Source of the DNA: Cryomorphaceae bacterium | GTDB taxonomy: Bacteria; Bacteroidota; Bacteroidia; Flavobacteriales_D; Sanyastnellaceae | Direction of reading: 5' to 3' | NCBI GenBank assembly: GCA_016124575.1 | Contig: WGNM01000018.1 | Location: 62,001 to 126,000 of the forward strand | DNA length: 64,000 nt | Part shown: positions 40,453 to 59,293 of the stretch, one piece after another | Numbering within the stretch: the stretch's first letter is position 1 | How the letters are laid out: each line of letters begins with the position of its first letter | Notes under the pieces: generated by a model | The model's database searches: none | What the model saw: the letters and a program-made list of their open reading frames with translations, nothing else | Told to the model about the DNA's origin: nothing | Translations under genes and position numbers: made by a program

Positions 40453-41330
40453 TTGAGATAATATGGAAAACGGTTAACGATGTATTGCATGGCATCGGCA
40501 ATGCTCAATTGTTGATTGGTGGCTCCTGAACGAATGATGAATACCTCTCCACTAACGCCTTTGCCAGCGTTTAAATAAATGGGCTTATACGAAGCTTCGC
40601 AATCTACTCGGTATATCATTTTATCGCGGTAGAGTTGGTGACTGAAGTGCACGTACGACATGGCTTCAGCTCCCAGCTTTTCTCGCACTAGATTCTGAAA
40701 GTCTTGGTCGAATTTATCGGCAGCACTGTTGTCTGATTCAGGTATGCCCAACAATGAACTGTCGTCGGCTACGCCAAGTAACAATGTACCGCCTTTTGTA
40801 TTGAGAAAGGCGGCCACAGCTTTCAATATGTTCGGGTTGAGCGCTCCTTCCTTAAACTCTGTGAATTCGTTCTCTCCTTGCTTTAGCAATGTTTCTATAC
40901 TGGTGTCAAGCAGTTCATGCAAGTAGCTAACTGTATTGCTGAACAAGACTTGTAAGAGATTCGGTTGCTTTGGCTCTGGCATCATACCGCTGGCTGTCAA
41001 ATCGGTATGTGAGAATGTCAACAAACTACTTTCCGGAGATTGCGAGATCACGGTGCCCAATCGGGGCAGTTGCTCCAATGTTGCAACCTCTCCGAAAGTA
41101 GCCCCTCTCCGCATGGATTTAGAGATGCCATTTTTCAAAACCAAACTGAATTCGCCTGAGTGCACGATATATAAATGCTGCCCTTCTTCATAACTGCGAA
41201 ATACACTTGCATCCAGTATGAACGCTTCATGGCGGTGAATGTCAAACAGCTTTCGCTTATCATCATCACTCAATACATGAAGCGATGAGGCGTTGAGGCT
41301 TTCGAGAAAGTCGGTATATTCAATTTTCAT
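40449..41330 (-). CDS. Fusion of cyclic-nucleotide-binding domain and AlbA_2 (Schlafen-like) domain
   Basis: A 293-residue cytoplasmic protein. Residues about 20-115 form a cNMP-binding/Crp-like beta-roll (YIVHSGEFSLVL, then FGEVATLEQLPR at 79-90, which resembles a phosphate-binding cassette with Arg90). Residues about 145-293 form an AlbA_2 domain (EFTEFKEG at 155-162, FLNTKGGTLLLGV at 175-187), the putative ATP- or nucleic-acid-binding core shared with Schlafen proteins. No HTH is present, so it is not a normal Crp regulator. The ATG at 41330 was chosen because the upstream extension has no similarity; a TATCTTCG box ends 7 bases before it. It overlaps the flavoprotein gene by 4 bases. Confidence 0.8.
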   Translation of the reverse strand: MKIEYTDFLESLNASSLHVLSDDDKRKLFDIHRHEAFILDASVFRSYEEGQHLYIVHSGEFSLVLKNGISKSMRRGATFGEVATLEQLPRLGTVISQSPESSLLTFSHTDLTASGMMPEPKQPNLLQVLFSNTVSYLHELLDTSIETLLKQGENEFTEFKEGALNPNILKAVAAFLNTKGGTLLLGVADDSSLLGIPESDNSAADKFDQDFQNLVREKLGAEAMSYVHFSHQLYRDKMIYRVDCEASYKPIYLNAGKGVSGEVFIIRSGATNQQLSIADAMQYIVNRFPYYLK

Positions 41331-41401
41331 GCTCCGCGAAGATAGGTGGGTTTGGGGTTGAAATGTGCTGATGAAGCGATGGACAACTACGATTATAAAT
41401 A

Positions 41402-41434
41402 AAAAAGACGACCCTTGCAATGGGTCGTCTTTTT
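41402..41434. terminator. Bidirectional terminator after the helicase gene
   Basis: Stem AAAAAGACGACCC (41402-41414) / GGGTCGTCTTTTT (41422-41434) with loop TTGCAAT. It serves the minus-strand helicase ending at 41452. Confidence 0.85.
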
Positions 41435-41451
41435 CTATGTTGTTCTTAGAT

Positions 41452-43275
41452 TTAACCTACAAAAGTCAAAGCTTTACCACGTTTTCCAGCACGTCCTGTT
41501 CTACCAATACGGTGAACATAGCTGTCGTATGTGCGTGGCACTTCGTAGTTGATAACGTGGCTGATGTCTTGGACATCGATACCACGTGCTGCAACGTCAG
41601 TAGCGCACAATACTTGGATATTGCCTTTCTTGAATTTATCAAGAGCAACCTGTCGAGCACGTTGGGTCTTGTCTCCGTGAATTTCATCAACAGCTACGCC
41701 CATCTTTTTCAAGTCGCGGCACAACTTGCTTACGCGGTGCTTTGTTTCGGCGAAGACGATTACACGTGTAAAGTCTTCATGCTGCAACATGGTTACAAGC
41801 GTCTCGATTTTATCATCCGCATTGCCAATGCGAACTATATCTTGATCAATAGTATCCGAAGATGATTGTCCTGAACTCACTTTTACAGTGATTGGATCTT
41901 CCAACAATCGCCCGATGATCTCTTTCAATCCATTGTCGATGGTCGCTGAAAACAACAGGTTCTGCTTTCTGTTGGTCATCTGCGCTGCCATGCGCTCAAC
42001 TTCATGAACGAATCCCATATCGAGCATGCGGTCGAATTCATCAAGCACCAAAACCTCAATCTTGTTCATCGGCAATGCGCCGCGATTGATAAGGTCAGCT
42101 ACTCGTCCTGGCGTTCCGATTATAACATGCGGACGCTGTTTCATGCGGCGAATGTCTTCGTTCACGCTTGTTCCACCAATGAATTTTTGAGCAAACAAAC
42201 GCATGCCTGGCGTAAGCGCTACGAACTCATCATAAACTTGCAAGGCAAGCTCACGGGTTGGGACAAGTATTAGGCTATCAAAATGCTGTGGAGAATGAAT
42301 CAAACGTTCCAAGATCGGAATAAGAAACGCAGCTGTTTTACCAGTTCCTGTATTCGCTATTCCCAACAAATCGCTACCTGCAATAGCTGCATCAATGGTG
42401 CGTTCTTGAATCTCAGTTGGTGTCTTAAACCCACGCTGACGCAATGCCTTTTTTACCAATGAATCGATAGGGAATTCATCAAATGTGCGCGGAGCAACAT
42501 AAGGTGCTTCAGGCTGAACCGGTGCAGCACGACGAATCAATTGCTCTGGATCCAAGCCTGGACCTAGTTTTTTCTTGCTGCGATTAGACGATGAACCTGC
42601 ACGACGGCTGTTTCCGCCTTGATCTCCGCGGCCATTGCGGCTTCTCGGACGATCACCAAAGCGTGAAGAGCCTCCTCTGCTTTCTCCGTTGCGGCTGCTG
42701 CCTTCTGACCGACGGGCTCCTTCTTCACGCGGTGGACGTGAATCCCCGCGGTTTTCAGTCCGCGTTGCGCCTTCTGAACGATCGTTCCCACGGTATCCAC
42801 CTTCTGAACGCTGTCCGCCTTCTGAGCGATTGTTCCCACGGTATCCACCTTCTGAACGTTGTCCGCCTTCTGAGCGATTGTTCCCACGGTATCCACCTTC
42901 TGAACGTTGTCCGCCTTCTGAGCGATTGTTCCCACGGTATCCACCTTCTGAACGTTGTCCGCCCTCTGAACGATTGTTCCCACGGTATCCACCTTCTGAA
43001 CGTTGTCCGCCCTCTGAACGCTGTCCGCCTTCTGAACGGTTTTCACCATTTCCTCCGCGGTATCCGCCTTCGCTTCTATTCCCTGGGCGATCATTGCCGC
43101 CACGTCCGCGGAAGTTTCCACCTCCTGATTGTCCGTCGCGAGATGAACCACCGTTATTTTTTTTCTTTTTGTTGTTCGGACGATCTGCGTTGGCTGATCC
43201 GGTGCGAGCACCTTTGCCAGCTTCTTGTCCTTTTGCAGGACCATCAGATGGTCTCTTTTTAAAAAATGTAAACAT
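41452..43275 (-). CDS. DEAD-box RNA helicase (RhlE type) with RG-rich repeat N-terminus
   Basis: A 607-residue ATP-dependent RNA helicase. The first 220 residues are low complexity: lysine/asparagine-rich, then tandem 16-residue units of the RSEGGYRGNN type, then an RG/SR-rich segment. The helicase core carries the Q motif region (GFKTPTEIQ), Walker A ANTGTGKTAAF, PTRELA, motif II as DEFD rather than DEAD, SAT, and the final YVHRIGRTGRAGKRG. Normally the RG-rich tail of such proteins is C-terminal; here it precedes the core and the protein ends right after motif VI. The start is the ATG at 43275 (MFTFFKKR), not the longer 43302 frame. Confidence 0.88.
   Translation of the reverse strand: MFTFFKKRPSDGPAKGQEAGKGARTGSANADRPNNKKKKNNGGSSRDGQSGGGNFRGRGGNDRPGNRSEGGYRGGNGENRSEGGQRSEGGQRSEGGYRGNNRSEGGQRSEGGYRGNNRSEGGQRSEGGYRGNNRSEGGQRSEGGYRGNNRSEGGQRSEGGYRGNDRSEGATRTENRGDSRPPREEGARRSEGSSRNGESRGGSSRFGDRPRSRNGRGDQGGNSRRAGSSSNRSKKKLGPGLDPEQLIRRAAPVQPEAPYVAPRTFDEFPIDSLVKKALRQRGFKTPTEIQERTIDAAIAGSDLLGIANTGTGKTAAFLIPILERLIHSPQHFDSLILVPTRELALQVYDEFVALTPGMRLFAQKFIGGTSVNEDIRRMKQRPHVIIGTPGRVADLINRGALPMNKIEVLVLDEFDRMLDMGFVHEVERMAAQMTNRKQNLLFSATIDNGLKEIIGRLLEDPITVKVSSGQSSSDTIDQDIVRIGNADDKIETLVTMLQHEDFTRVIVFAETKHRVSKLCRDLKKMGVAVDEIHGDKTQRARQVALDKFKKGNIQVLCATDVAARGIDVQDISHVINYEVPRTYDSYVHRIGRTGRAGKRGKALTFVG
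42784..43023. repeat. 48-bp tandem repeat in the helicase gene
   Basis: Five near-identical contiguous 48-bp units begin at 42784, 42832, 42880, 42928 and 42976 (each starts GTTCCCACGG on the plus strand). The period equals 16 codons, so copy-number changes keep the frame. Partial units extend on both sides. Confidence 0.9.
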
Positions 43276-43354
43276 TTGTGTTTGATTAAGTCTGTTTCGC
43301 ACGCGCTTGTTTTAGCGTGCACAGACATGAGTAAAGGTCCTGGGTTCGGTCTTG

Positions 43355-44443
43355 TCAGTCTGCAATTCCGAGTTGACGCAGCATTGAAGTATGACTGCGT
43401 AACGCGTCTTTCAATGAACCCAATGAATGATAAGGAACTCCAAATTCTTTAGCCGTAGCCGCGACGATGGGGGCAATTTTCGGATAGTGAATGTGGCAAA
43501 TATGCGGAAAGAGATGATGCTCCACCTGGAAATTCAATCCACCAGTGTACCAGGTGACAATCTTGCTTTTCTCGGCAAAATTAGCTGTCGTCCGTAATTG
43601 GTGTACATGCCAGCTGTAGCTGAACGTCGGATCTTCTTTCTCGTCAAGAATTTCCGTGGTTTCAACGACGTGCGCCAGTTGAAATGTGGCGCTCAAAATA
43701 ACTCCCATCACAAAGTGCATCACAAAGAACATCAACAGGATGGCCCAAAATGGTGCTGGGATAAATATGGCGGGAAGGACAAGTATGTATACAAAGTACA
43801 CTACTTTCCAAAGGGTGACATAAGAGAATTTTTTGCGGAAGTCTTCTCCTTCCTGAACAAGTCCTTTCTTCTTATATCTGAACAAACTGGTGAAGTCAGC
43901 AACTGTCACCCATGAAAAAGTCAGCAAACCATACAACAGCCATGCGTATCTATGCTGAAAACGATGTATCCATTTGCGCTCTTGAAACGGAGTGAATCGC
44001 AACACTGAAGGGACATCGATATCTTCGTCGGCGTGGTTAATGTTGGTGAAGGAGTGGTGCAACATGTTGTGCTGGATTTTCCAGGTTGTTGCGCTCGCAC
44101 CAACTATATTCATTGAATAGCCGAGTATTTTATTTACAAGTGGTTTTGAAGAGTAAGCGCCGTGCAAGGCATCGTGCATCACATTGGTCCCAATGCCTGC
44201 CATTCCCAAGCCCATTATCACCCACAGGCCAAATAGTGCCCACATATTGGTGATGATACCGGTCATCATGATCACCAAAGGTGCTAAAGCAATAGTGAAT
44301 ACAATGATGGTTTTGGCATGTACACGCCAATCAGCATTTCTTGTGATCTTATTGTCTTCGAAATAAGCTTCAACGCGTTTTCTGAGTGTGTTTACAAACT
44401 CTGCGTCTGCTTTTGTGGTAAATCTATACCTTTTTAACGTCAT
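43355..44443 (-). CDS. Fatty acid desaturase 1 (membrane, front-end-like)
   Basis: A 362-residue di-iron membrane desaturase. The three histidine boxes are complete: HDALH (90-94), HNMLHH (125-130) and QVEHH (306-310). The Q in the last box is typical of front-end or linoleoyl-CoA desaturase-like enzymes, but there is no fused cytochrome b5 domain. Four or more membrane helices lie between the boxes. It is a paralog of the gene at 54586-55710. The leader region (44444-44575) contains a possible structured RNA and an exact -7 box. Confidence 0.88.
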   Translation of the reverse strand: MTLKRYRFTTKADAEFVNTLRKRVEAYFEDNKITRNADWRVHAKTIIVFTIALAPLVIMMTGIITNMWALFGLWVIMGLGMAGIGTNVMHDALHGAYSSKPLVNKILGYSMNIVGASATTWKIQHNMLHHSFTNINHADEDIDVPSVLRFTPFQERKWIHRFQHRYAWLLYGLLTFSWVTVADFTSLFRYKKKGLVQEGEDFRKKFSYVTLWKVVYFVYILVLPAIFIPAPFWAILLMFFVMHFVMGVILSATFQLAHVVETTEILDEKEDPTFSYSWHVHQLRTTANFAEKSKIVTWYTGGLNFQVEHHLFPHICHIHYPKIAPIVAATAKEFGVPYHSLGSLKDALRSHTSMLRQLGIAD

Positions 44444-44483
44444 GCATTATCATGCTATCGAGCGACTTTCGTGCGTCAACTCG

Positions 44484-44553
44484 GGGGTTGTCTTTCTTTT
44501 CAGATTCCAGAGAAGTCAGGTGGCTTTTCGCCGTTCTCAAATTGAACAACCCC
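44484..44553 (-). promoter_or_regulatory. Possible structured leader RNA of desaturase 1
   Basis: On the minus strand GGGGTTGT (44553-44546) can pair with ACAACCCC (44491-44484), enclosing about 54 bases that contain a small GGC-GAAAA-GCC hairpin and weaker ones. It lies between a TACCTTTG box (44575-44568) and the start codon. Confidence 0.3.
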
Positions 44554-44652
44554 TCGTTAGAACGCCACAAAGGTACGTCTTTATTCAAATAGTTCGACGT
44601 AAAGGATGTTAAGAATCTAGGAACATCAGTGTTTACAGGTGGTTTGAAAGCA

Positions 44653-47600
44653 TTATTCTGCAATAATCAATCGCGAAGAAGCCTGATTTGAACCGTCGTT
44701 TAAGGTTAAGTTATAAACACCCAAGGCCAAATTGTTCAAATCAAGGTGAAGTGTGCCCGACTTGTTTTGAAAGGTTTGTTCAAAGACAAGTTTTCCCGTC
44801 ATATCGGATATTTGTACGATCAAATCTCCACCCGCTGCCCCTTCAATGCTGATTAGCCGATCTGCTCGCAATGGATTGGGGTAGATCGTGATCCCGCCTT
44901 CTCCAAAAAACTCTTCTATTGAAGTAGGATCAAGTAAAACTTCTAAGTAGTTAGGAAGGGTGGATACCTCCATCGGATTGCCATGTATGTCTTGTGCTGC
45001 GGAGATTTCAAGGTCAAGAAAATAGTCTGTACCACTAACGAAGACTGGATCAAATGCAAAATAATAGACGTCTGAAATTACCCATTGACTTTGTACAAGT
45101 GGCGCTCCAATGGTGGCATTGCTACCTCCATTTGGGAAGTTGAGGATAGGCAATATGTCTTGATTCATTTCTTCATCAAACCAAATGCTGCCAACCCACG
45201 ACTCACCCAAGTTGTCGAAATCTATGGTGTAGGTATTCGCTAAAACCATGTCGGCGAGAGGTGCTTTGGTGTCGATGGTGAGAGTCAATGCCATTTCCGT
45301 ATCGCCAACTATATTGCCGGCGGCATCGCTAAAGTTGGAAATAATGAAGTTGGCGTTCTCTGTTTCAATATCACCATCCGCTAGAAAGAAGCTTGCACTG
45401 AAAATTGAGCTGCCCAACCATACACTGGCCGCGGGGTTGTATATGAATGTAGCATTGGTGGCAGCATCATTTGCAGTCAAAACGGGTATCGTTGATGTAT
45501 CCATTGATTCGTCAAAAGCAATATTCGCAGTCATGGCGCCGCTGGCTACTGAGGCTATGTTAACGATAGATGTTGATGGGTTGGTTGAGGTGATCTCCGG
45601 AAATCTGGCGTCGTATTCAAAATCTGAATCGCCTATCCAAATGGCTTGGGTCAGGCCTTCAGCAGATACCGCTCCTGAAATGCGGATTTGGAAATCTCTC
45701 CATTCTTCTGAAATACCACTCACATTCCATGAGAATTCACCTGTTACGGCGTCGATCCAGACAAAACTCTGGTCCAACAAAGCACTGCTTTCAAGGTCGG
45801 CACCGTTAAATTCCAATAGGGGAGTTGAGCTCATGTCCATTTCTACATCGTAATGCGCCGTTACGTGAAACGTTGATCCTCCGTTGGTGCTATTGATGAT
45901 GGAAAATTCTGCTGTCACTGCATCTATATGGGGAAGTCCACTTTCTATGTACTCCCTTGCTTTGTCGAATGCGCCATTTCCGATTTCTATTCCAGCAATC
46001 CTTCCTGGAATGTCGTCACAGGGTGGGTGAATGCCTCCCCAAATGCGGGAAAGACTGCACTGGTCTGATGCGTCGCGATAGGTCGCCCACTGAAGTACGA
46101 TTTCTGTACTTGGCCCGTCTTCAAAAACCAGGTACTCGTTCATTTGTGCGTCGAATTCACCCATGCCTCCGGGGAAATATTCGTCGCCAGTTATTTGGGT
46201 TAATACTTCAGCAGCAGCCCTCGAGTAGGTGCTGTGGCCAGACACATAACCGGCAAACGGCGGGGTAACGAAGTTAGGGCGTTGATAAGGCCACCAATCT
46301 TCTGCTCTAATCCAACCTACTCCGGCAACGTCTGTTTCAGGATTGTCGATGAAGTAGTGTCCACGCCATGTATAAAGCTTGATCTTCCCGATGTGCTCAC
46401 CATTGTCTCCAGCTAGCGGATCGCCTGCTTCTATAAGTTCTATATAACCTGGATTTAAACGTATGCCCGCGGGATGGTAATGAGGCAGGTCTTCGCTGTT
46501 CGACTGTCCTTTGTCGCACATATAACGTATAGCGGAAACAGGACGGATAAAGTCGTACCACCCTTTGATTCCCCATGCGGTAATCGCTGCATCGTGCATG
46601 GCACCTCCCAAGGTTAAATACGATTTTACATCCCATTCCAAAAGGGGCAATATTTCTCCTTCGCCCATCCATCGGTGCTCCATCATGGGGTGGTCATTCA
46701 CGTAGTTCAAGATGGTAAACCAATGTCCGGGTGGTGTTTCTGAATGGGGTCCATCGGCCCAGAATTCGGCTAAAACACGGGCGTAGTCGCCACGAGGGAC
46801 AATTTGTGGTGCATACGGCTCGCCGGTGAAAGGATTGAGGTCGTGCCCGATGCCTGGGTCTCCTCCCTCAAACAAGTCATAAAAATCTGGATACTCCTCA
46901 AAACTAGTCGGCAACTCAGCAACATTGCCTATGCTTGCTGGTGAAATGTCCCACATAACTCCATCGTTTGGGTCCAAGTGTGAAGCCCAAATGCTGACCA
47001 ATTCAAACCCCCAACGGTATATGTCATCGTACTCGCGCGCTCCTAAAGTGTCGAGCTGTGGAGCAGGACCTGGATCGTGGTAAACGATGTACTGATCCCC
47101 ATCTCTGAAGTAAATGTTTTGGACAGACTCATCGAGTGCGAAGGGTATCAGGTTGCCCCATTCCGGACTAAGAAAAGGGGGGACGGTGGTAAATGGAATT
47201 CCGTTTTGATCGACAAATGTTTCCAACGCCAAAGGCTGCCATCTGTTCGGGTCAACAAGTGTTGGATTTCCAGGTTCAATCATCTCCAAATCGGGGTTCA
47301 CTGGAAGGTAGTATTGACTCGCATAACTTCCTCCTTCATTTGATCCGTCTTGCAATCCAAACTCAATCATTTTATCTCCAATGTAATTGCCCAATGCAGC
47401 TGGAATGTCGGTACTATAATCGGTACTCGCATACACAATGTCATACCCCAAGGCATTCATCAATGAATCACATCGTTGTAAGGTTTCTTCTGAACCTGGG
47501 GAATAGAAAAAACGATGTCGTAAAATGCGGTATGCAGCATAACTCATGGCTTCTTCTTGCGCCGCTTGAATGTCTTCTGGTATCGTCACTCCATCGAAGG

Positions 47601-47850
47601 CTACGGTGAAATCACCCATGGTATTGCCCAAAAAACAAGTGCTCGCTATGCTGTCGTAGGCTGCCCAAGCGTCGTACAATACTACAGAGGTGTGGTAAAG
47701 GTTTCTTGCATGTATCGTTGGTCGAGCTTGATCTCCTCGAATGGCTTCTAGAAGTACGTCGTTCCATTTTCGCGCTACACTGTGTTCTTGTGCATTTATA
47801 TTTGAAAAGATGAAGAGTAGTACGGGAACAACAAGTAATATCCGTTTCAT
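44653..47850 (-). CDS. Vanadium-dependent haloperoxidase-like T9SS protein 1
   Basis: A 1065-residue exported enzyme. After a signal peptide (NINAQ) comes a PAP2/vanadium haloperoxidase-like domain (to about 650). All vanadate-site residues known from fungal chloroperoxidase are present with the same spacing: Lys429 and Arg436 (K-x6-R in IKGWYDFIRP), Ser537-Gly538-His539 (VSGHSTYSR), Arg602 and His608 (R-x5-H in SRIWGGIHPP). About three Ig-like repeats follow (about 650-980), then a type A T9SS sorting domain (IYPNP, MTGKLV, LALGVYNLTL). Known relatives oxidise halide with H2O2 or act as acid phosphatases; the activity and halide cannot be told from sequence. It is a paralog of the 48451-52347 gene. 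Confidence 0.85.
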   Translation of the reverse strand: MKRILLVVPVLLFIFSNINAQEHSVARKWNDVLLEAIRGDQARPTIHARNLYHTSVVLYDAWAAYDSIASTCFLGNTMGDFTVAFDGVTIPEDIQAAQEEAMSYAAYRILRHRFFYSPGSEETLQRCDSLMNALGYDIVYASTDYSTDIPAALGNYIGDKMIEFGLQDGSNEGGSYASQYYLPVNPDLEMIEPGNPTLVDPNRWQPLALETFVDQNGIPFTTVPPFLSPEWGNLIPFALDESVQNIYFRDGDQYIVYHDPGPAPQLDTLGAREYDDIYRWGFELVSIWASHLDPNDGVMWDISPASIGNVAELPTSFEEYPDFYDLFEGGDPGIGHDLNPFTGEPYAPQIVPRGDYARVLAEFWADGPHSETPPGHWFTILNYVNDHPMMEHRWMGEGEILPLLEWDVKSYLTLGGAMHDAAITAWGIKGWYDFIRPVSAIRYMCDKGQSNSEDLPHYHPAGIRLNPGYIELIEAGDPLAGDNGEHIGKIKLYTWRGHYFIDNPETDVAGVGWIRAEDWWPYQRPNFVTPPFAGYVSGHSTYSRAAAEVLTQITGDEYFPGGMGEFDAQMNEYLVFEDGPSTEIVLQWATYRDASDQCSLSRIWGGIHPPCDDIPGRIAGIEIGNGAFDKAREYIESGLPHIDAVTAEFSIINSTNGGSTFHVTAHYDVEMDMSSTPLLEFNGADLESSALLDQSFVWIDAVTGEFSWNVSGISEEWRDFQIRISGAVSAEGLTQAIWIGDSDFEYDARFPEITSTNPSTSIVNIASVASGAMTANIAFDESMDTSTIPVLTANDAATNATFIYNPAASVWLGSSIFSASFFLADGDIETENANFIISNFSDAAGNIVGDTEMALTLTIDTKAPLADMVLANTYTIDFDNLGESWVGSIWFDEEMNQDILPILNFPNGGSNATIGAPLVQSQWVISDVYYFAFDPVFVSGTDYFLDLEISAAQDIHGNPMEVSTLPNYLEVLLDPTSIEEFFGEGGITIYPNPLRADRLISIEGAAGGDLIVQISDMTGKLVFEQTFQNKSGTLHLDLNNLALGVYNLTLNDGSNQASSRLIIAE

Positions 47851-47913
47851 GGATTTATGAATTTTAACGATTTTACAACTTAATGGTCGATTTCCCTAAG
47901 TATATGATATGTG

Positions 47914-48384
47914 TCAGCTACTAAAAATTGGTAACTGTTGAAGGCTCATGAAAAGATTAACAAGCGCATCGGCAGCAACTATGGCCAAAAGACCTGTTTC
48001 AAATGTGGCTTCTCGCCATTTTCGACCAATCATGAAATAGGCTGCCAGTGATATGATGCTCAACCAGGCCATATGCCTCGTCCCCGGTAAGTGAAATACC
48101 CTGAAAAGATTGAAAAGCAGCATGGGAATGATCACTGCATAGGCCGTTTTGTTCTTTAAAGTTTTGATGTTGAAAGCAAGTAGCAGGAGCAACGATAGGG
48201 TGTATATCCATGAACCCGCTAAAAGTACATAGCCCGAGAAAAAAAGGAGTAGCAATGAGGCAATGAGCTGCATGCTGATGATGACCTTCACAACCCAGTG
48301 GTTGTTAGTCTTTCGCAATGTCCCTATCGCTAAGCTCGCTGCAGCGAGGATGAAAATGTAATGGATATCTTGAACAAACTGCAT
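47914..48384 (-). CDS. Small polytopic membrane protein of unknown function
   Basis: A 156-residue protein with five to six hydrophobic helices and short polar loops, and no motif I recognise. The frame continues to a TTG at 48420 inside a terminator hairpin; the ATG at 48384, just after that hairpin, is the better start. It lies between the two haloperoxidase-like genes on the same strand, 63 bases before the second one. Confidence 0.65.
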   Translation of the reverse strand: MQFVQDIHYIFILAAASLAIGTLRKTNNHWVVKVIISMQLIASLLLLFFSGYVLLAGSWIYTLSLLLLLAFNIKTLKNKTAYAVIIPMLLFNLFRVFHLPGTRHMAWLSIISLAAYFMIGRKWREATFETGLLAIVAADALVNLFMSLQQLPIFSS

Positions 48385-48396
48385 GGCTGAAAGGTC

Positions 48397-48437
48397 AAAA
48401 AAAAACGGGACAACCATCAAGGTGTCCCGTTTTTTTT
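48397..48437 (-). terminator. Terminator after haloperoxidase-like gene 2
   Basis: Stem ACGGGACA (48405-48412) / TGTCCCGT (48423-48430) flanked by runs of A and T on both sides, thus bidirectional. The next gene starts 13 bases beyond it. Confidence 0.85.
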
Positions 48438-48450
48438 AATTCGTTGATGT

Positions 48451-51400
48451 TTAACGTATCACCTGAAGCTTCATGTTCATCATGCCCTGATCAGTCATTA
48501 GATTGATAAGGTAGATTCCCTCAGCAAGTTCAGCTGAAACGATAATGTTACCAGACTGTACAAGTGGACGTTCGGTATGCACCAATTGTCCGCTAACAGA
48601 ATAAATATCCAATCGATCAGGCGTTGTGTTTTCTCCCAATTGAATGCTAAACGATTGTCCGCTTAGTGCTGGATTCGGGAACAACAATCCATTGGTTGTT
48701 CCAAACTCTGCTACGCCAACACTTGTGATATCGATATCGAAGTAGTCTACATAAGCTGCTGTAATCAATAGGTTGCCAGCAAGGTCAAGACCCGCAGCAA
48801 CGCTGACGTCGATGTCCATCAAGGTAACTTCAGGACTAGCGACATTATACACTGCAGAATACGTAGTAGAATTGATCCAGCCTGATTCTGTAGTGTTGGC
48901 AGAAATGATTGCAAGAGGATTCTCAGATGGGAACAGCAAGATAGGGTTGCTGCTCGTGTTCATGGTTTCGTCAAAAATCATGATCAATTCGAACATGGCT
49001 GCCCCTGTGTCATCAATGCCAATTTCGTAATCATTTGCTGCAAGTATGATCAACTGTGGATTTCGGGTGTCGATAGCGAAGACATCGCTTTCTGAAATCA
49101 TCATTTGCGGATTTCCATTGGCATCGTTGAGGTTAGAAACGCTGAAACCAAGTCCATCTATCTCTTCGTTAATATCTGTAACGTCATACACTGCTTCGTA
49201 AGTTGTTGCACTTAACCATCCGCTTTCAGCGATGTTGACACTCAAACTTCCAGAAACATCACCACCAGTGAAATTGAGTGAAGGGGTCTGGGTTTGATCC
49301 ATGCCTTCACTGAACACAAGGGTGAATGTGATTGTTCCGCTGCCAGCATTTACATCTGCTATTTGGTAGTCGTTCATGGCGACGTTAGACAATGATGGGT
49401 TGTTGGTGTCAAGCATAAAGGCATTCGCAACCAAAGCGATGTTCTGGTTGTTGCCTGCAGGATCTTGAGCAGAGATAGACTCGATTTCAACAGATACCGC
49501 TGCCAGGTTTACATCTGCTACGTTATATACAGCAGTGTAGCTTGAGGCGCTTAGCCATCCGCTCATGGCATTGTTGAATGAAAGTGTAGCAGCACTGTTG
49601 CCATTGTCGTTAAAGACAATAATTGGAGCAATGGCTGTGTTCATGTCCTCATCAAATTCAAGATTCACTGAGAATGTTCCGGTTCCTTGCGAAAGCTCGT
49701 TCACAACGCCTGCCGACGTCAAAACGTTTATAGCTGTTGGATTTTTGGTATCGATGGCGATGTTAGTAGCCAATTGAAACGCTTCTTGGTCATTGCCCAA
49801 TGCGTCTTTCGCGCCGTCAACGTTCAATGAGATGATGTCGATTTCTTCGTTCGCATCACTCGCATCGTACACTGCTACGAATTCGTTTTGAGAAATCCAG
49901 CCACTGTTGCCAGCGTTGTAAACAAGTGAGTTTGCAAGTGGGTCTCCGTTAGAGAATGTCAAAGCCGGGTCAACAGACGTCAGCATGTCTTCAGAAAACA
50001 CAACACTGATTGAAACTTCACCATCTGCAATGGCTGCATCATTGATCATAAAGTTGTCCGGAGCAGCAATACTAACAATCGGGTTTTCGGTGTCGATTTC
50101 AATTACGTTGGCAGCAACGTATGGGTCTTGGTTGTTGCCCAGTGTGTCTTTACCACCTTGAACTTGCAAAAAGATCTGGTTCAAATGCACGCCGATATCG
50201 GATGTTGAATAGGTCAATTGGTAAACAGTCCCACTTAGCCATTGAGCTGAAATCAGCGACAAACCGCCATTCTCTGGGTTGTCGAATGGATAGTTTATTT
50301 GCGGAATAAATGTAACGTCCATGGCACGGTCGTAGGTTATGTCGATCACTACGTTGTTGCCTACTTCGGCGTCGTTAACAATTGTGATTGTTGGCACCAC
50401 TGAACTAATTTTCGGGGCATCCACAAACATGAACTGTTCTGCAAAAGCAAATACTTCAGGGCCTAGTTCTGCTCCAATCAATCGGCCTGGGATGTCGTCA
50501 CATGGGGGGTGGATACCTCCCCAGATGCGCGACAAGCTGCACTGGTCAGAAGCATCGCGGTAGGTCGCCCATTCAAGGAAAATGTCTTGTGACGGTCCTT
50601 CTTCAAAAACCAAAAATTCATTCTGTGGCGCTTCAAATGAACTCATTCCACCTGGGAAGTAAGGGTCTCCAGTAACAAGTGTCAAAATTTCCGCGGCAGT
50701 TCGAGAAAAAGTGCTGTGTCCGCTTACATACCCTGCAAATGGAGGGGTTACAAAAGACGGACGTTGATAAGGCCACCAATTTTTGGCAAGAATCCATCCC
50801 ACACCAGCTTGATCTACAGCAGGGTCTTCAATGTAGTCAGGGCCTTTCCAAGTGTAAAGCTTAATTTCATCAACAAATTCGTTGTTTGGTCCAGCCAATG
50901 GGTCACCAACTTCTACCAATTCAACATATCCAGGAATTAGCGGGAATCCATCTGGATGATAATGCGGCAGGTTTATGTCTGTACACTGACCTTTCTCTGC
51001 CATGAATCGTATTGCCGATACCGGACGACCAAAGTCGTAATACCCTTTGACGCTCCAAGCTGAAATGGCAGCATCGTGCATTCCGCCTCCTAGGGCAAGG
51101 TAGCATTTCACGTCCCATTCTAAATCTTCGAGTACAGGTCCCTGTCCACCCCAACGTTTTTCCAACATCGGGTGATCGTTTACTGTGTTAACAATTGTAA
51201 ACCAGTGTCCTGGAGGTGTTTCAGAAGACGGACCATCGGCCCAAAATTCAGCAAGTACGCGGGCGTAGTCAGATCTTGGCACCATGACAGGTTCATAAGG
51301 TTGTCCGGTAGCAGGATTTACTGCGTATCCTTGACTGGCATCGCCCCCTTCATATAGGTTATAAAAGTTCGGATAGTCGTCGAACGAGGTTGGAAGCGGT

Positions 51401-52347
51401 GGATTGTTTCCTAACGAGGCAGGCGATATATCGATCATTGTTCCATCGAACTCATGATGTGACTGCCAAATGGCTACCAGCACTTGTCCCCATTTCCAAT
51501 TCGATTCCAATCCTTCACCCAAACCAGGCTCCAACAAGGGTGGCATTCCTGGATCGTGAAAAACGTTCCAATCAAATCCATCTCTTTGAAGTACAGTTAA
51601 GTCATCAGTTGTTAATGAAAAGGGCACTACTTCTCCCCATTCTGGTGAAAGAAAGGCAGGGGTGTTTGCTGTTTGGTTTCCACTTTGGTCAATAAAAACA
51701 GCCAAACTTAAGGGTTGCCATCGGTTCGGGTCAATTGCCGTAGGGTTTCCAGGGTTGTCCATCACCAATGGTGGATTCAATGGGTAATAGAACTGGTTGG
51801 CGTATACGTTTTGTTCATTCGAACCGTCTTGCAATCCAAACTGTATGATTTGATCAGCTAGGTAGTTGCCCAAGTGGGCAGGGTCGCCATCGATATAGTT
51901 GGTCGAAGTATTGGAAATAGGGTGCCCCAAATCAGACATCAACTGGTTCATGAATTCGAACGTTTCTCCTGCTTGTGGTGAATTGGCAAATCGATATTCC
52001 ATGATTCGATACATGGCATAGCTGATTGCTTTTTCTTGTGCCGCTTGAACATCGGCAGGCACAGGTACTCCAGCAAAATCACAGGTATAACCTCCGAGTG
52101 TTTTTCCTAAGAAGAAGGGTTGTGCGATGGGGTCGTAAGCAGCCCAGGCATCGTACATCAATACAGAAGAGTGGAATAAGTTTCGAGCATGCACAGTAGG
52201 TCGTGCGAAGTCATTCCGGATACCTTCAAGAAAGACTTCATTCCATTGTCGGGCAACTGAATGTTCTTGCGAATAGCTATAAAATGGAATAGAAATCAAC
52301 AAAAATAGAAATGCACGAAAAGAAGAGGAGAGTAGAGATTTTCGCAT
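48451..52347 (-). CDS. Vanadium-dependent haloperoxidase-like T9SS protein 2
   Basis: A 1298-residue paralog of the neighbouring protein. It has a signal peptide (FYSYSQ) and the haloperoxidase-like domain to about 630 with the full set Lys434, Arg441, Ser542-Gly543-His544, Arg607 and His613. Five Ig-like repeats of about 112-116 residues follow (boundaries near 634, 749, 865, 977, 1093 and 1207, each marked by IDTxNP or a variant and a GWxxxxxYxAVYD segment), then a T9SS sorting domain (FPNPALSG, YSVSGQLV, EGIYLINL). The two proteins share the same start EHSVARxWN after the signal. The extra repeats mean a longer stalk than in protein 1. The substrate is unknown. Confidence 0.86.
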   Translation of the reverse strand: MRKSLLSSSFRAFLFLLISIPFYSYSQEHSVARQWNEVFLEGIRNDFARPTVHARNLFHSSVLMYDAWAAYDPIAQPFFLGKTLGGYTCDFAGVPVPADVQAAQEKAISYAMYRIMEYRFANSPQAGETFEFMNQLMSDLGHPISNTSTNYIDGDPAHLGNYLADQIIQFGLQDGSNEQNVYANQFYYPLNPPLVMDNPGNPTAIDPNRWQPLSLAVFIDQSGNQTANTPAFLSPEWGEVVPFSLTTDDLTVLQRDGFDWNVFHDPGMPPLLEPGLGEGLESNWKWGQVLVAIWQSHHEFDGTMIDISPASLGNNPPLPTSFDDYPNFYNLYEGGDASQGYAVNPATGQPYEPVMVPRSDYARVLAEFWADGPSSETPPGHWFTIVNTVNDHPMLEKRWGGQGPVLEDLEWDVKCYLALGGGMHDAAISAWSVKGYYDFGRPVSAIRFMAEKGQCTDINLPHYHPDGFPLIPGYVELVEVGDPLAGPNNEFVDEIKLYTWKGPDYIEDPAVDQAGVGWILAKNWWPYQRPSFVTPPFAGYVSGHSTFSRTAAEILTLVTGDPYFPGGMSSFEAPQNEFLVFEEGPSQDIFLEWATYRDASDQCSLSRIWGGIHPPCDDIPGRLIGAELGPEVFAFAEQFMFVDAPKISSVVPTITIVNDAEVGNNVVIDITYDRAMDVTFIPQINYPFDNPENGGLSLISAQWLSGTVYQLTYSTSDIGVHLNQIFLQVQGGKDTLGNNQDPYVAANVIEIDTENPIVSIAAPDNFMINDAAIADGEVSISVVFSEDMLTSVDPALTFSNGDPLANSLVYNAGNSGWISQNEFVAVYDASDANEEIDIISLNVDGAKDALGNDQEAFQLATNIAIDTKNPTAINVLTSAGVVNELSQGTGTFSVNLEFDEDMNTAIAPIIVFNDNGNSAATLSFNNAMSGWLSASSYTAVYNVADVNLAAVSVEIESISAQDPAGNNQNIALVANAFMLDTNNPSLSNVAMNDYQIADVNAGSGTITFTLVFSEGMDQTQTPSLNFTGGDVSGSLSVNIAESGWLSATTYEAVYDVTDINEEIDGLGFSVSNLNDANGNPQMMISESDVFAIDTRNPQLIILAANDYEIGIDDTGAAMFELIMIFDETMNTSSNPILLFPSENPLAIISANTTESGWINSTTYSAVYNVASPEVTLMDIDVSVAAGLDLAGNLLITAAYVDYFDIDITSVGVAEFGTTNGLLFPNPALSGQSFSIQLGENTTPDRLDIYSVSGQLVHTERPLVQSGNIIVSAELAEGIYLINLMTDQGMMNMKLQVIR

Positions 52348-52441
52348 ATTGGTCAGAGGTTAAGGGTAAAAAAATCGTAAGATGGTTAATCTTTAGACGT
52401 GTTGAATTGCTGATAGTTGCCTCTGAAAATGCTGATTTATA

Positions 52442-52753
52442 TTATTTTCTTAACCTTTCAATTTCGCTTTTAACCCATTTATCGGTTATGAAAGTGCCAA
52501 ATGGAAGTAGCGAAGCCACCAACATCCCTGCCGTGCGCAGGAAACTCCATTTCAATGAAATCCAGAGGGTTACTAAATAGAGTGAGAATGCAACGAATAG
52601 TGCGCCGTGTACCCAGCCGCCATATTTCACGAGCACAGGGAAATTAGCGAGGTATTTCAGTGGCATTGCGACAAAAAGCAGAAACAGATATGAAGCGCCT
52701 TCCCACAACGCAATTTTGCGAAAGCGGATAAGCAAGGGGAGGGTAGTTTGCAT
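52442..52753 (-). CDS. DUF3817 small membrane protein
   Basis: A 103-residue protein with three hydrophobic helices. The pattern FRKIALWEGASYLFLLFVAMPLKY followed by VHGALFV is the DUF3817 signature (integral membrane, function unknown). A strong terminator of the upstream OmpA gene ends about 25 bases before it. The ATG at 52753 is preferred; 52759 is also possible. Confidence 0.82.
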   Translation of the reverse strand: MQTTLPLLIRFRKIALWEGASYLFLLFVAMPLKYLANFPVLVKYGGWVHGALFVAFSLYLVTLWISLKWSFLRTAGMLVASLLPFGTFITDKWVKSEIERLRK

Positions 52754-52780
52754 GCGCAAAGATGCACAAGGATGGTGAGG

Positions 52781-52813
52781 AAAAAAAAACTGCCGGAAAA
52801 TAATCTCCGGCAG
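52781..52813 (-). terminator. Terminator of the N-terminal-OmpA gene
   Basis: On the minus strand CTGCCGGA (52813-52806) / TCCGGCAG (52797-52790) with an 8-base loop, then nine T (52789-52781). Confidence 0.92.
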
Positions 52814-52820
52814 CTTACGA

Positions 52821-54524
52821 TTAACTATTCACATGAAGTGCTTCTCTAAATTCATTCAGAGAAACAGGTACGGGTTTGAGCTTTAACCTAGGCTGTCCGG
52901 TAAACTTGGCTTGGTCAAGCATGATTTGTCCGTTTTTTACCGAATACGCTATGGCAACAGCGTTCTGTTTTTTGGGAATCAAGGGCGACGTATAACCCCT
53001 TTCTTGTTGACTGCACGGAAGTAGTGAGTTGATTTTATCGAATACCAGCACTACTTGGTTATCAATGGGAGCGTCAATGTGCAATTGTATTTTTGCAAGT
53101 GCTGGCTCTGCATAAAAGCGGTCGCAGTTGATCCAACCTAAACTTGAAGAATTAAAGGTATACGAATTTATCAGGTCTATATCCCATATGCCAGTTTCCA
53201 TCGCCATCGCTAGTTTTGCATTTCTGATTGCTGCGCATGAATCGCGCCAGGCGGATAATTTGGTTTCGTAGTCGGTATACAACAGGTTGATCTCTATTTC
53301 GCGTTTTTTTACGTAAGGCAAATAGATCTGTTCCATGAAATACAAGCTGTCTGTTGTAGTTTCTGTTCTCCATGCCATCAAGGCCTCTTGATATGCTTTG
53401 TGTTTTTCTGGTTGAGCAAGGCTATCAGCTATGAACTTTTCAAGTTTGGAGTGATAGCGCGCCATGCTGCGTTCATACCTCTGGTAAGCGCGCTCTTTAT
53501 TTGCTTGGTTCTGCGCAATGATTTTTTTTCGACCAAAAATTTCATACCATTCAAAATCGACTTCATATTTCGAATCATCTACTTCTTTAGGCATTTTAGG
53601 CCGCATGCGAATTCCCGGACGTGTAGGTTTTGGCGCAGCAGTAAATGATGGGACAAAACTTCGGAAGTTTGGGAAAATTGGACGTTCGGGATAGTTCGTC
53701 GACACTTCGACGGTGGAGGTTTTTGTGTCGGTCCAATCTGCACCGGTTTCAGAAACGAAGAGGGTCATTCCCTGTTTTTTGAAATCCGTAGGAAGTGAAA
53801 TGGTAATGGTGTTGTTCGGATCGAGGGTCAGTGCCTCGCCTGTGTTTGAAAATGCTTCGATTTTTAACATCCCGCCGCTTTCCAACATCTTGCCTTCCGA
53901 CATGGTTGTAAGTCCTTCAGCTAAAAAATCTTGATATGAAAGGGCCTCGGTTATGTTTATAATGGCGTTTTCAACAGGCTGCCCGTTGGCATCAAGGAAG
54001 CAGTTTGCGGGTATTCCAACAATGGTTCCACGATTGCTTTTAACAACGTTTTCTTGCGTGAGATCAATCTCTTTTTTCAGGTCGTTGTTTGAACCGAGTA
54101 TTTCCAATAGTTCGGCTTCTGATTCGATGTCGTGCTTTTGAATGACGACATCCACGCGCCGATTGTCGGTTAGGTTTTGTCGGTCGCCGTTCATGGGCTT
54201 TTGCTCTCCAAATGCCTCTGTTACTATGCCAATATCGCAGAATCCTTCTCCCGTCAATATGCTGGTAACGGTGGAGGCTCTTCGCTCAGAAAGGTCAAGG
54301 TTGTAGGATGTTGAACCTCTCTTGTCGGCGTGTCCGCGGACAACAATTGTCAGGTCATCATCGACGGTGAAGGTGGAGAGAAACTCTTTGAGCTTTTTTT
54401 GATTCGCGGCATCAAGCTGGTCGATGTCGGTGTCGAATCTCAATGAGATTTCAGAGGTTGTTGTTTTTGCATTGGCAGTGCAGAGGTAGAATAAACAGAC
54501 AGTCAATACATATATACTTCGCAT
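52821..54524 (-). CDS. Exported protein with N-terminal OmpA domain and long unknown C-terminal region
   Basis: A 567-residue protein: signal peptide (CTANAK), then an OmpA-like peptidoglycan-binding domain directly after it (about 22-132; GHADKRGSTSYN, LSERRASTV and NRRVDVVI keep the Asp and Arg that contact diaminopimelate). A beta-rich region (about 165-290) and a long helical segment rich in Arg, Tyr and Glu (about 320-450) follow, then a C-terminal beta region. OmpA domains usually sit at the C-terminus, so the order is unusual. I cannot name the rest. It may tether a periplasmic module to the cell wall. Confidence 0.75.
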   Translation of the reverse strand: MRSIYVLTVCLFYLCTANAKTTTSEISLRFDTDIDQLDAANQKKLKEFLSTFTVDDDLTIVVRGHADKRGSTSYNLDLSERRASTVTSILTGEGFCDIGIVTEAFGEQKPMNGDRQNLTDNRRVDVVIQKHDIESEAELLEILGSNNDLKKEIDLTQENVVKSNRGTIVGIPANCFLDANGQPVENAIINITEALSYQDFLAEGLTTMSEGKMLESGGMLKIEAFSNTGEALTLDPNNTITISLPTDFKKQGMTLFVSETGADWTDTKTSTVEVSTNYPERPIFPNFRSFVPSFTAAPKPTRPGIRMRPKMPKEVDDSKYEVDFEWYEIFGRKKIIAQNQANKERAYQRYERSMARYHSKLEKFIADSLAQPEKHKAYQEALMAWRTETTTDSLYFMEQIYLPYVKKREIEINLLYTDYETKLSAWRDSCAAIRNAKLAMAMETGIWDIDLINSYTFNSSSLGWINCDRFYAEPALAKIQLHIDAPIDNQVVLVFDKINSLLPCSQQERGYTSPLIPKKQNAVAIAYSVKNGQIMLDQAKFTGQPRLKLKPVPVSLNEFREALHVNS

Positions 54525-54585
54525 GTGACTGTGATTTTGGTACTAACCTAAAACAGCAACCACGAGCGAAATATTGTGCAATCCT

Positions 54586-55710
54586 TTAGCCCATTATATC
54601 ATCCAATGCTGGAGTACCAAATTTCCGAAGGGTGACTATGTGCGATTTGAAAGCTTCTCCGAATGAAGTAAATTCATGATACGGATGGTTAAATTCTGCC
54701 GCTGTCTCCTTTACTATCGGGGCAAGATCTGCGTAGTGAACGTGACAAATATTCGGGAACAAGTGGTGCTCAACTTGAAAGTTCAAACCGCCTACATACC
54801 AACTTAAAAATTTATTGTGACGAGCAAAATCAGCGGTGGTATGCAACTGGTGTACTGCCCAAGAATTCTCCATGTTGCCTTTTTCATCGGGCAGTGGGAA
54901 ATCGGTAGACTCAACAACGTGGGCAAGTTGGAATACTACAGATAAAACCATTCCAGCGATGAAATGCATCACCAGAAATCCGGTGAAAACCTGCCAGAAA
55001 GTATAGCCGGCCATCATTGGCAGTCCAACAGCTACCAGCATGTATACAATCTTTAAAAAAGTGATTTTGAAAAGGAAGGTTAGACTTTCCTTTTTTGACA
55101 TTTTATTCAATCCTTCTTTTCGGTATCGAATATATTGAACGTGGTCTTTGGCAACTGCCCAGTAGATGGTTAGAATTCCATAAAAAAAGAATGCCAAATA
55201 CCATTGGTGCTTGTGCACTGGCTTAACCTCTCCATGAGGGGCAAACTTCAATACCAACTTGTTGTCGATGTCGTTGTCTTTGCCACTCACATTCGTATAG
55301 GTATGGTGCAATACGTTGTGCTGTAAATTCCAATTGTACACGCTGCCACCCAATAAATTGAGTATCCGCCCAATGAATACATTGCCTTTTTGACTCCTTA
55401 AGTATGCTCCATGATTTGCATCGTGCATCACACTCATCCCAATTCCTGCCATGGCAAATCCCATGATGACCCACATTGCGGTCATCACCCAAAAACCAGG
55501 GGCAAATGCTACTATCGCAACAAACGGTAGTATGTATGCGCTTACCAAAATCGCTGTCTTCACAAACATGCGCGTATCGGCGTTTTGGCTTTTATTCGAC
55601 TCTTTAAAGTAATTGTCAACTCGCTTGCGCAAAGCTGAAACGAAATCTTGTTGCTCTCTGTTCGAAAAACGAACCACGGTTTGAGCTGTGGGTATAGTGT
55701 TGTTCATCAT
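54586..55710 (-). CDS. Fatty acid desaturase 2 (membrane, front-end-like)
   Basis: A 374-residue paralog of desaturase 1 with complete histidine boxes HDANH (96-100), HNVLHH (131-136) and QVEHH (312-316). It shares length, topology and the AGIGMSVMHD region with its paralog. The pair may act on different positions or chain lengths; the sequence does not show which. It is the first gene of the minus-strand block that contains the haloperoxidase-like genes, but a 61-base gap and terminators separate it from most of them. The 281-base upstream gap shows no clear promoter or other feature. Confidence 0.88.
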   Translation of the reverse strand: MMNNTIPTAQTVVRFSNREQQDFVSALRKRVDNYFKESNKSQNADTRMFVKTAILVSAYILPFVAIVAFAPGFWVMTAMWVIMGFAMAGIGMSVMHDANHGAYLRSQKGNVFIGRILNLLGGSVYNWNLQHNVLHHTYTNVSGKDNDIDNKLVLKFAPHGEVKPVHKHQWYLAFFFYGILTIYWAVAKDHVQYIRYRKEGLNKMSKKESLTFLFKITFLKIVYMLVAVGLPMMAGYTFWQVFTGFLVMHFIAGMVLSVVFQLAHVVESTDFPLPDEKGNMENSWAVHQLHTTADFARHNKFLSWYVGGLNFQVEHHLFPNICHVHYADLAPIVKETAAEFNHPYHEFTSFGEAFKSHIVTLRKFGTPALDDIMG

Positions 55711-55991
55711 ACAGGCCGCAAGTTAATGAATATAGCTATCTGGTCAATCGGTTTTTCGATCAGTTGCAATGTTAATATTCAACAATGTTCGGTGAATTGT
55801 CTAAAGGAGCTCGCCCTGATGTTTAAATAAATAAACTCCAAAAAGCTGTATTCGAGTTGGATGTAGAAAAATTATGGATAATATATCCGTGATATTTAAA
55901 TAACTGATTTTAAGCAGTTTTGTTTTCTAGGAACCTTTTTACCTTGTCGGCCAAAAGTTGGTGTTCCCTAACCAAAACTTATACTAAGTCT

Positions 55992-56352
55992 ATGATTTTT
56001 CGGACCTTTTTACTGCTGTCTATCATGTTCACTGTTGCATCAGCATCTGGGCAATGTCAATGGTACACGGTGACTCTCGAAGACACCGATTTGGCGTTCG
56101 AGGTTTCGTGGGAACTGATTGATGCGAATGGGGTGACCTGGCTTTCAGGGGGCGCTCCTTGTAACTGCACTTTGTGAATCATTGAACAGCGCTCTTGTAT
56201 GTGTTTGATGATGGAGTGGTATGCAGGAAAGGAGCGAATTTTTTTCCGATGTTCAACAACCGATAGGTTTAGCTAACTTGACAAAAGGTATGTATTTGTT
56301 CAGACTAACGAGCAGCCACAGGCAGTCACTACGCTTATTGATTCAGCATTGA
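55992..56352 (+). pseudogene. Decayed secreted protein with T9SS sorting-domain remnant
   Basis: The first part (55992-56177, 61 residues) has a signal peptide (SASGQC) and SWELIDANG, resembling secreted proteins with SWEL-type repeats, then stops. A middle piece in another frame (about 56192-56265) reads LLYVFDDGVVC, like the usual next repeat segment. A third piece in the third frame (56221-56352) ends in NLTKGMYLFRLTSS and LRLLIQH, the end of a type A T9SS sorting domain. Three frames in order over 360 bases show internal deletion and at least two frameshifts. This is a remnant of a former T9SS cargo gene. Confidence 0.72.
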
Positions 56353-56382
56353 CGTGAACAAGTGTCGGTGTAAGGCGCTTTT

Positions 56383-56775
56383 TTACGTTTCCGCATCTAT
56401 GATCTCTTTTAACATAGTGGTTGTAACTGTTTTTCCTCTAAAGCCTGTAATGATAGGATAAGATTCAGCCTTCGTTTTATCCCTGTCATCAAGCGACGAG
56501 GTAAGCATGAAAATCCTTGTTTTTTCAAATTGACTTTGGGGATGTTTCATGAGTTCATCAAGAACTTCGAAGCCATTCATTTCGGGCATGCGAATGTCGA
56601 GAAAGATATAGTTAGGAAGGGCTTCATTTTTTTCTAAAATGAGCTTTAGATAATCCAGACCCCGAACACTTGAATTATACACAGTGATTTCTCCGGAAGG
56701 GTCCACCTTTCGAATCACTTCCTGATGCAATATGTTCAAGATTACATCGTCGTCGATTAATAAATAAGTGCTCAT
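56383..56775 (-). CDS. Single-domain response regulator (CheY-like)
   Basis: A 130-residue receiver domain without output domain. It has the acidic pocket Asp8-Asp9-Asp10, phosphoacceptor Asp60 in FLDIRMP, Thr92/Ser93 and Lys115 in FRGKT. It follows the histidine kinase gene after one base, so it is its likely partner. Output may pass through protein-protein contact or a phosphorelay. Confidence 0.9.
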   Translation of the reverse strand: MSTYLLIDDDVILNILHQEVIRKVDPSGEITVYNSSVRGLDYLKLILEKNEALPNYIFLDIRMPEMNGFEVLDELMKHPQSQFEKTRIFMLTSSLDDRDKTKAESYPIITGFRGKTVTTTMLKEIIDAET

Positions 56776-56776
56776 T

Positions 56777-59269: not shown

Positions 59270-59293
59270 AATTATTGCGCTTCGCAGATGCGA

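Follow-up and report, generated by a model that had tools for sequence, protein, structure and literature searches.

Described vanadium haloperoxidases

In the characterised vanadium-dependent haloperoxidases (VHPOs), a His-bound vanadate takes peroxide, halide then attacks it, and the resulting bound hypohalite can react in place or leave (excerpt of PMC12887939). According to the excerpt of PMC8407465, the macroalgal and cyanobacterial enzymes generally produce diffusible hypohalous acid and the Streptomyces enzymes are site-specific; selective enzymes are marked by a catalytic Lys and a catalytic Ser (excerpt of PMC12871659). A vanadium iodoperoxidase (VIPO) has been described from Zobellia galactanivorans (excerpt of PMC9296495). 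The site of the chloroperoxidase (CPO) of the fungus Curvularia inaequalis includes Lys353, Arg360, Arg490 and His496 (excerpt of PMC10427571), and its His404 is named in a PDB title. Here, we describe two neighbouring genes of a Cryomorphaceae bacterium, VHPO-A and VHPO-B, which encode VHPO-like enzymes that are a surface-displayed, multi-domain variant of this known family.

The locus

The window, i.e., the whole stretch of DNA that was analysed, comprises 64,000 nucleotides of contig WGNM01000018.1. The genes of interest, and one hairpin, are all on its minus strand:

43355..44443, minus strand: DES1, fatty acid desaturase (Pfam PF00487, E 3e-36; boxes HDALH, HNMLHH and QVEHH)
44653..47850, minus strand: VHPO-A, 1065 aa; putative signal peptide, 620-aa VHPO-like catalytic domain, three predicted beta-sandwich repeats, type A tail of the type IX secretion system (T9SS)
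47914..48420, minus strand: small membrane protein P0006, of no known family, between VHPO-B and VHPO-A
48451..52347, minus strand: VHPO-B, 1298 aa; plan of VHPO-A with five predicted beta-sandwich repeats
52442..52759, minus strand: DUF3817 integral membrane protein (Pfam), between VHPO-B and the upstream DES2
52787..52816, minus strand: terminator-like hairpin (13 pairs and a T run), between the OmpA gene and the DUF3817 - VHPO-B - VHPO-A run
52821..54524, minus strand: OmpA-domain protein (Pfam), 567 aa, between VHPO-B and the upstream DES2
54586..55710, minus strand: DES2, fatty acid desaturase (Pfam PF00487, E 1.3e-33; boxes HDANH, HNVLHH and QVEHH)

The order of transcription is DES2, OmpA-domain protein, DUF3817 protein, VHPO-B, P0006, VHPO-A, DES1 and a DEAD-box helicase, the last named from its sequence. 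The coordinates in an earlier note on this DNA are exact. The note had rightly placed desaturase paralogs on both sides and on the same strand (DES1 and DES2 are 44% identical over 357 positions), with a small membrane protein between the enzymes. Its list of neighbours was correct for these five genes but left out the OmpA-domain and DUF3817 genes which, together with the hairpin, set DES2 apart from VHPO-B. An OmpA-domain homolog also precedes VHPO-B in G001 (L090), a genome of the same genus, and in G012 and G031; a DUF3817 homolog does so in G001 (L090) and G015.

P0006 had no match in Pfam or NCBIfam. We rejected it as a conserved partner of the VHPOs, as BLAST found no relative of it in the compared neighbourhoods; in G001 the contigs lack the part between A and B, which lies outside this comparison. 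Clustering of the neighbouring ORFs revealed no universal VHPO neighbour, the largest non-VHPO cluster covering 18 loci. The representative of this cluster, read by eye, resembles a PAS-type sensor. The window also contains a 48-base tandem repeat (42768-43020, 5.3 copies, 97% match) that codes for a portion of the N-terminal RSEGGYRGN-type tail of the DEAD-box helicase.

Signals around the genes were at background level. The terminator scan of the window region found 12 sites, against 12.1 in shuffled sequences, and the hairpin at 52787..52816, itself a pattern match, has the longest stem among them. Sigma-70 matches numbered 27 (23.2 in shuffles), which is overall at the shuffle level, as were both scans in L037 and L041. 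What we take to be the Bacteroidota-type promoter pattern matched twice in the window (2.1 expected) and never in the VHPO region. The 209-base leader of DES1 has no RNA element matched by Rfam (positions 40000-60000 searched). G015 has a 16-pair terminator-like hairpin between VHPO-B and VHPO-A, so that the two genes need not share one transcript; G002 has a weaker hairpin (6 pairs) between DES2 and VHPO-B. In G015, DES2 and the VHPO pair have an opposite-strand gene between them (L041:6111-6797), which reads by eye like a peroxiredoxin.

Domain plan and export

VHPO-A and VHPO-B are 48% identical over 976 aligned positions and follow the same plan: a signal-peptide-like stretch (identified by eye), some 620 residues of catalytic domain, repeats of about 114 residues each, of which A has three and B five, and a T9SS tail. 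The Pfam matches on both are DUF6851, VCPO_2nd and Por_Secre_tail. The last of these (PF18962) and the T9SS tail profile TIGR04183 scored above their cut-offs in both proteins, which confirms the T9SS tails reported in the earlier note. The genome also has a gene for SprA (TIGR04189, 2452 bits), the sole T9SS component that we searched for. Both proteins therefore combine a C-terminal tail domain with a T9SS gene in the genome, as expected for T9SS type A cargo, and the surface architecture that had been proposed for them agrees with this.

Linker motifs at residues 752, 866, 980 and 1093 divide the stalk of VHPO-B into five repeats of about 114 residues, and those at 747 and 860 of VHPO-A leave room for three. 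The model of the VHPO-B stalk and tail, built on a six-row alignment (pLDDT 80, pTM 0.55), is a chain of beta sandwiches, in line with the three and five repeats counted previously. These had been called Ig stalks. Beta-sandwich repeats are indeed predicted, and Ig-type chains are among the PDB matches, with myelin-associated glycoprotein first, but these matches are weak (TM-score by query length ≤ 0.25). "Ig-like" thus seems a fair label for the modelled repeats, with no closer family shown.

Fold and family of the catalytic domain

The AlphaFold model of the catalytic domain (621 residues, pLDDT 86, pTM 0.90) aligned with the bacterial VHPOs from residue 1-2 to residue 617-621 (Z 25.6-28.2 over 395-436 residues), i.e., the VHPO fold was found over the whole domain, N-terminal helices included. 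The best fold match was XhnO11 (9l8x, Z 28.2 over 427 residues); NapH1 (3w35) gave Z 28.1 over 432 residues, the Zobellia VIPO 25.7 over 395, and the Curvularia CPO about 21 over about 420. No solved VHPO was more than 24% identical in structural alignment. All 17 Foldseek matches at E ≤ 0.001 were VHPO-family chains, and so were the five PDB sequences matched at E ≤ 0.01 by a profile of 33 relatives (9l8x, 9ptr, NapH3, Zobellia VIPO and NapH1). The Pfam profile VCPO_2nd scored 30.3 in VHPO-A, over the cut-off of 27, and 25.5, just under it, in VHPO-B. NCBIfam gave nothing on the catalytic domain up to E 0.1, which makes this branch easily missed in annotation.

Residues of the vanadate site

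VHPO-A contains the motifs KGWYDFIRP (429-437), SGH (537-539) and SRIWGGIH (601-608), and VHPO-B the motifs KGYYDFGRP (434-442), SGH (542-544) and SRIWGGIH (606-613). The site residues are accordingly K429, R436, S537-G538-H539, R602 and H608 in A, and K434, R441, S542-G543-H544, R607 and H613 in B. Both proteins thus keep all the vanadate-site residues listed in the earlier note, K-x6-R, SGH and R-x5-H. The spacing likened there to that of a fungal chloroperoxidase is found in the Curvularia enzyme, as Lys353/Arg360 and Arg490/His496.

The seven residues (K, R, S, G, H, R, H) are invariant in 127 out of 127 full-length sequences, which were picked by similarity to VHPO-A (126 are different, two are those of the window, and six partial sequences were set aside). 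A Trp three positions before the Lys and a Phe seven positions before the SGH His are also invariant in these 127; presumably they correspond to Trp350 and Phe397 of the Curvularia enzyme. The alignment to the Zobellia VIPO pairs W..K......RP, PPF..Y.SGHS and SR..GGIH, with the Trp and the Phe at the same places. We dropped the idea of reading halide specificity from these two residues, as the Zobellia iodoperoxidase has both. The apparent loss of the essential Arg in the A2 row L081 is an X in the record and not a substitution.

Proposed function

We propose that VHPO-A and VHPO-B are two surface-anchored vanadium-dependent haloperoxidases, old paralogs, that probably yield hypohalous acid outside the cell. 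We put the probability of this reading, which draws on analogy with the characterised enzymes, at about 0.65. Both proteins would be exported via the Sec and type IX systems and would then stay at or close to the outer surface, on beta-sandwich stalks that differ in length. From the site residues and the predicted fold we infer vanadate binding and halide oxidation. On the model of the Curvularia and Zobellia enzymes, the ligand of vanadate would be His608 in A or His613 in B, and Lys429, Arg436, Ser537, Gly538 and Arg602 (A numbering) would hold the vanadate in place. H2O2 would then give peroxovanadate, and attack by halide would give hypohalous acid, with H539 (A) or H544 (B) as the putative acid-base His. 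Given the T9SS tails and the SprA gene, this chemistry would occur outside the cell.

Free, non-selective release of oxidant appears likeliest because both proteins retain the acid-base His of the Curvularia and Zobellia enzymes, and we infer it with reserve. The Ser of the Lys/Ser rule may correspond to the column of the SGH His, as the SGS of XhnO11 suggests; if so, Ser is absent there in 127 out of 127 sequences (the excerpt of PMC12871659 gives the rule without positions). The use of such enzymes would likely be external, e.g., to harm or deter competitors, to inactivate signals, or to deal with peroxide at the surface. The pair might also divide the labour: two hypohalite generators at different reach, on three- and five-domain stalks, with different halides or targets, could form a short-range oxidant weapon or a signal-quenching coat. 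We regard this elaboration as doubtful; were it true, it would concern a family of bacteria where nearly every member carries such an enzyme.

Alternative readings

The K/R/SGH/R/H set alone is common to VHPOs and PAP2 phosphatases, as the earlier note had pointed out, and we take the motifs of VHPO-A and VHPO-B to fit the PAP2 pattern. The proteins could thus be secreted PAP2-type acid phosphatases in which this set serves to hydrolyse phosphate esters at the surface of the cell, and phosphatase structures do match part of the model. This is unlikely: the Z of these structures does not exceed 11.2, and they cover about 200 residues, for the most part beyond model residue 210, whereas the VHPOs match the whole model with Z 25.6-28.2. 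The VHPO-like fold across all 621 residues sustains the haloperoxidase-like identity originally proposed; a class A acid phosphatase would show a PAP2 core alone and no N-terminal VHPO region. The profile search at E 0.01 yielded only VHPO-family chains, and Pfam reported VCPO_2nd and no PAP2 domain for either protein. Z alone is no proof of function, since the algal bromoperoxidases (Z 10.7-13.3 over 306-330 residues, cyanobacterial ones included) score hardly above the phosphatases. The enzymes could also be selective, substrate-specific VHPOs, or VHPO-fold enzymes with another oxidative chemistry, acting on a defined extracellular substrate. Their closest folds are XhnO11, NapH1 and NapH3, the PDB title of NapH3 names a rearrangement rather than a halogenation, and the domain is about 150-200 residues longer than the solved bacterial chains. 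Yet, SGH is present in all 127 sequences, against SGS in XhnO11 and SGF in NapH3, and the genes listed beside the pair include no biosynthetic gene cluster, which makes selective enzymes improbable. Haloperoxidases that release hypohalous acid at the surface remain our preferred reading.

The flanking desaturases had suggested a joint role, i.e., one pathway in which the surface VHPOs halogenate or oxidise unsaturated lipids supplied by the desaturases. The genes are on the same strand and their order recurs to some extent. The full order DES2 - VHPO-B - VHPO-A - DES1 was found in the window and, among the 59 other genomes searched, only in G002 and G015, so that the recurrence sought by the earlier note exists in two of them and goes no further as a full order. 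G001 has VHPO-A followed by DES1 and then the end of the contig, and G012 has DES2 6 kb upstream. DES1-type genes (≥ 60% identity) occur in 4 of 60 genomes, always beside VHPO-A, and the next best homolog is 50% identical. However, we found a desaturase homolog within 20 kb of a VHPO in at least six of the 44 VHPO-bearing genomes (the window genome G000, G001, G002, G012, G015 and G025), a lower bound taken from positions on contigs, many of which are short. Of the 60 genomes, 56 have desaturase homologs (E 1e-20), and among the 16 genomes that lack a VHPO the figure is 14. Among the best 80 loci from named genomes, many of them short, a desaturase was seen only in L098, from the same genus. 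Both G012 and G031 keep VHPO-A with no DES1 beside it, and G031 has neither desaturase on the stretch read. DES2 is separated from the VHPOs by the hairpin in the window, of a kind no commoner than in shuffles, or by the opposite-strand gene in G015. The arrangement lies within a longer syntenic block, in which DEAD-box, CRP-like and flavoprotein genes, unrelated ones, are conserved as well. It is best explained by vertical synteny. A joint pathway is thus very unlikely, and the desaturases are probably just neighbours of the two putative haloperoxidases.

History and distribution of the enzymes

In the tree (59 rows, quick method, SH-aLRT support only), VHPO-A falls in a clade of five rows (support 97) and VHPO-B in a clade of six (support 99). 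Genera g1, g2, g12 and g15 are represented in both clades, and the A clade joins genes of g16 and g6 (support 85) rather than joining B directly, which argues for an old duplication. The window, G002, G012, G015 and G031 have A and B next to each other and with intact sites; in G001 they are on separate contigs. These sequences indicate that A and B are paralogs of long standing that have stayed adjacent in four genera. The other adjacent VHPO pairs (G053, Tamlana nanhaiensis) are from different lineages. In G001, VHPO-A (L046:4747-7961, G001:C57) is split into two overlapping frames, by a frameshift or by an error of sequencing or assembly; it may be a sequencing error.

The window genome encodes further relatives. 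A third VHPO copy (L035:5767-9240, G000:C8) forms a separate, well supported lineage in the tree and has only N-terminal FG-GAP repeats in place of the stalk. A fourth, shorter relative (L036:8990-10552, G000:C61; 520 aa) has a Pfam PAP2 domain and a T9SS tail, and is about 30% identical to VHPO-B over the matched stretch.

We found a VHPO match (E ≤ 1e-5) in 44 of 60 near-relative genomes, that of the window included: 36 of 37 in the same family (again including its own) and 8 of 23 elsewhere in the order. The latter become seven at E 1e-60, the match in G048 being weak. When the phylum was sampled evenly, 17 of 296 genomes (own included) matched at E ≤ 1e-60; this type of VHPO is thus concentrated in the family of the window. 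A scan of named genomes gave at least 591 stretches, at least 588 of them confirmed, and the branch is widespread. The best 80, which were kept, are mostly from Bacteroidota, but include records labelled Gammaproteobacteria, Proteobacteria, Gemmatimonadetes, Ignavibacteriae, KSB1 and Verrucomicrobia; except for Cognaticolwellia mytili, these are metagenome-assembled genomes (MAGs), given here by their record labels.

An N-terminal extension of at least 250 aa is present in 37 of the 126 proteins that differ in their catalytic domains. Four scanned proteins with a long N-terminal extension carry FG-GAP and UnbV_ASPIC. One such fusion (L127:6566-11848, 1760 aa), from a MAG labelled Proteobacteria, has eight FG-GAP_3 and two UnbV_ASPIC stretches with the VHPO domain. 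A Saprospiraceae protein (L151:9932-13060) continues from its VHPO part into five putative metal-binding motifs of MopE type and a T9SS tail. No paper on the stalked branch was among the matches listed in our literature search, as judged from titles and the openings of abstracts, and the search that included UnbV gave zero papers. If these enzymes are active, surface-bound haloperoxidases would be common in some Bacteroidota and present in records labelled as other phyla. They would come in stalked, FG-GAP/UnbV-fused and metal-motif-fused forms, and hypohalous acid and organohalogens would have an overlooked source in the bacteria that carry them.

Comparison with known enzymes

The best fold and sequence matches, N-terminal helical region included, are NapH1 (3w35/3w36), NapH3 (8cxl), XhnO11 (9l8x) and 9ptr/9pts, at 18-24% identity to the model in structural alignment. 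The nearest folds are nevertheless not the nearest active sites, because XhnO11 and NapH3 lack the SGH His that VHPO-A and VHPO-B keep. The class A PAP2 acid phosphatases (PhoN, PhoC and that of E. blattae) share the core and the motif set, but most of the listed ones align only from model residue 210 on. The Curvularia chloroperoxidase (1vnc, 1idu) has the same K-x6-R, SGH and R-x5-H spacing; it is fungal, is 17-18% identical, and to our knowledge has neither a stalk nor a T9SS tail. The vanadium iodoperoxidase of 4cit and 4usz, which we take to be from Zobellia galactanivorans, has the same pattern of W, K, R, F, SGH, R and H. Its solved chain is about 410 residues long, against 620 for the domain of VHPO-A, with 23% identity, and its entry sequence of 458 residues leaves no room for a stalk of the VHPO-A/B type. 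VHPO-A and VHPO-B represent a little-studied branch of a known enzyme family.
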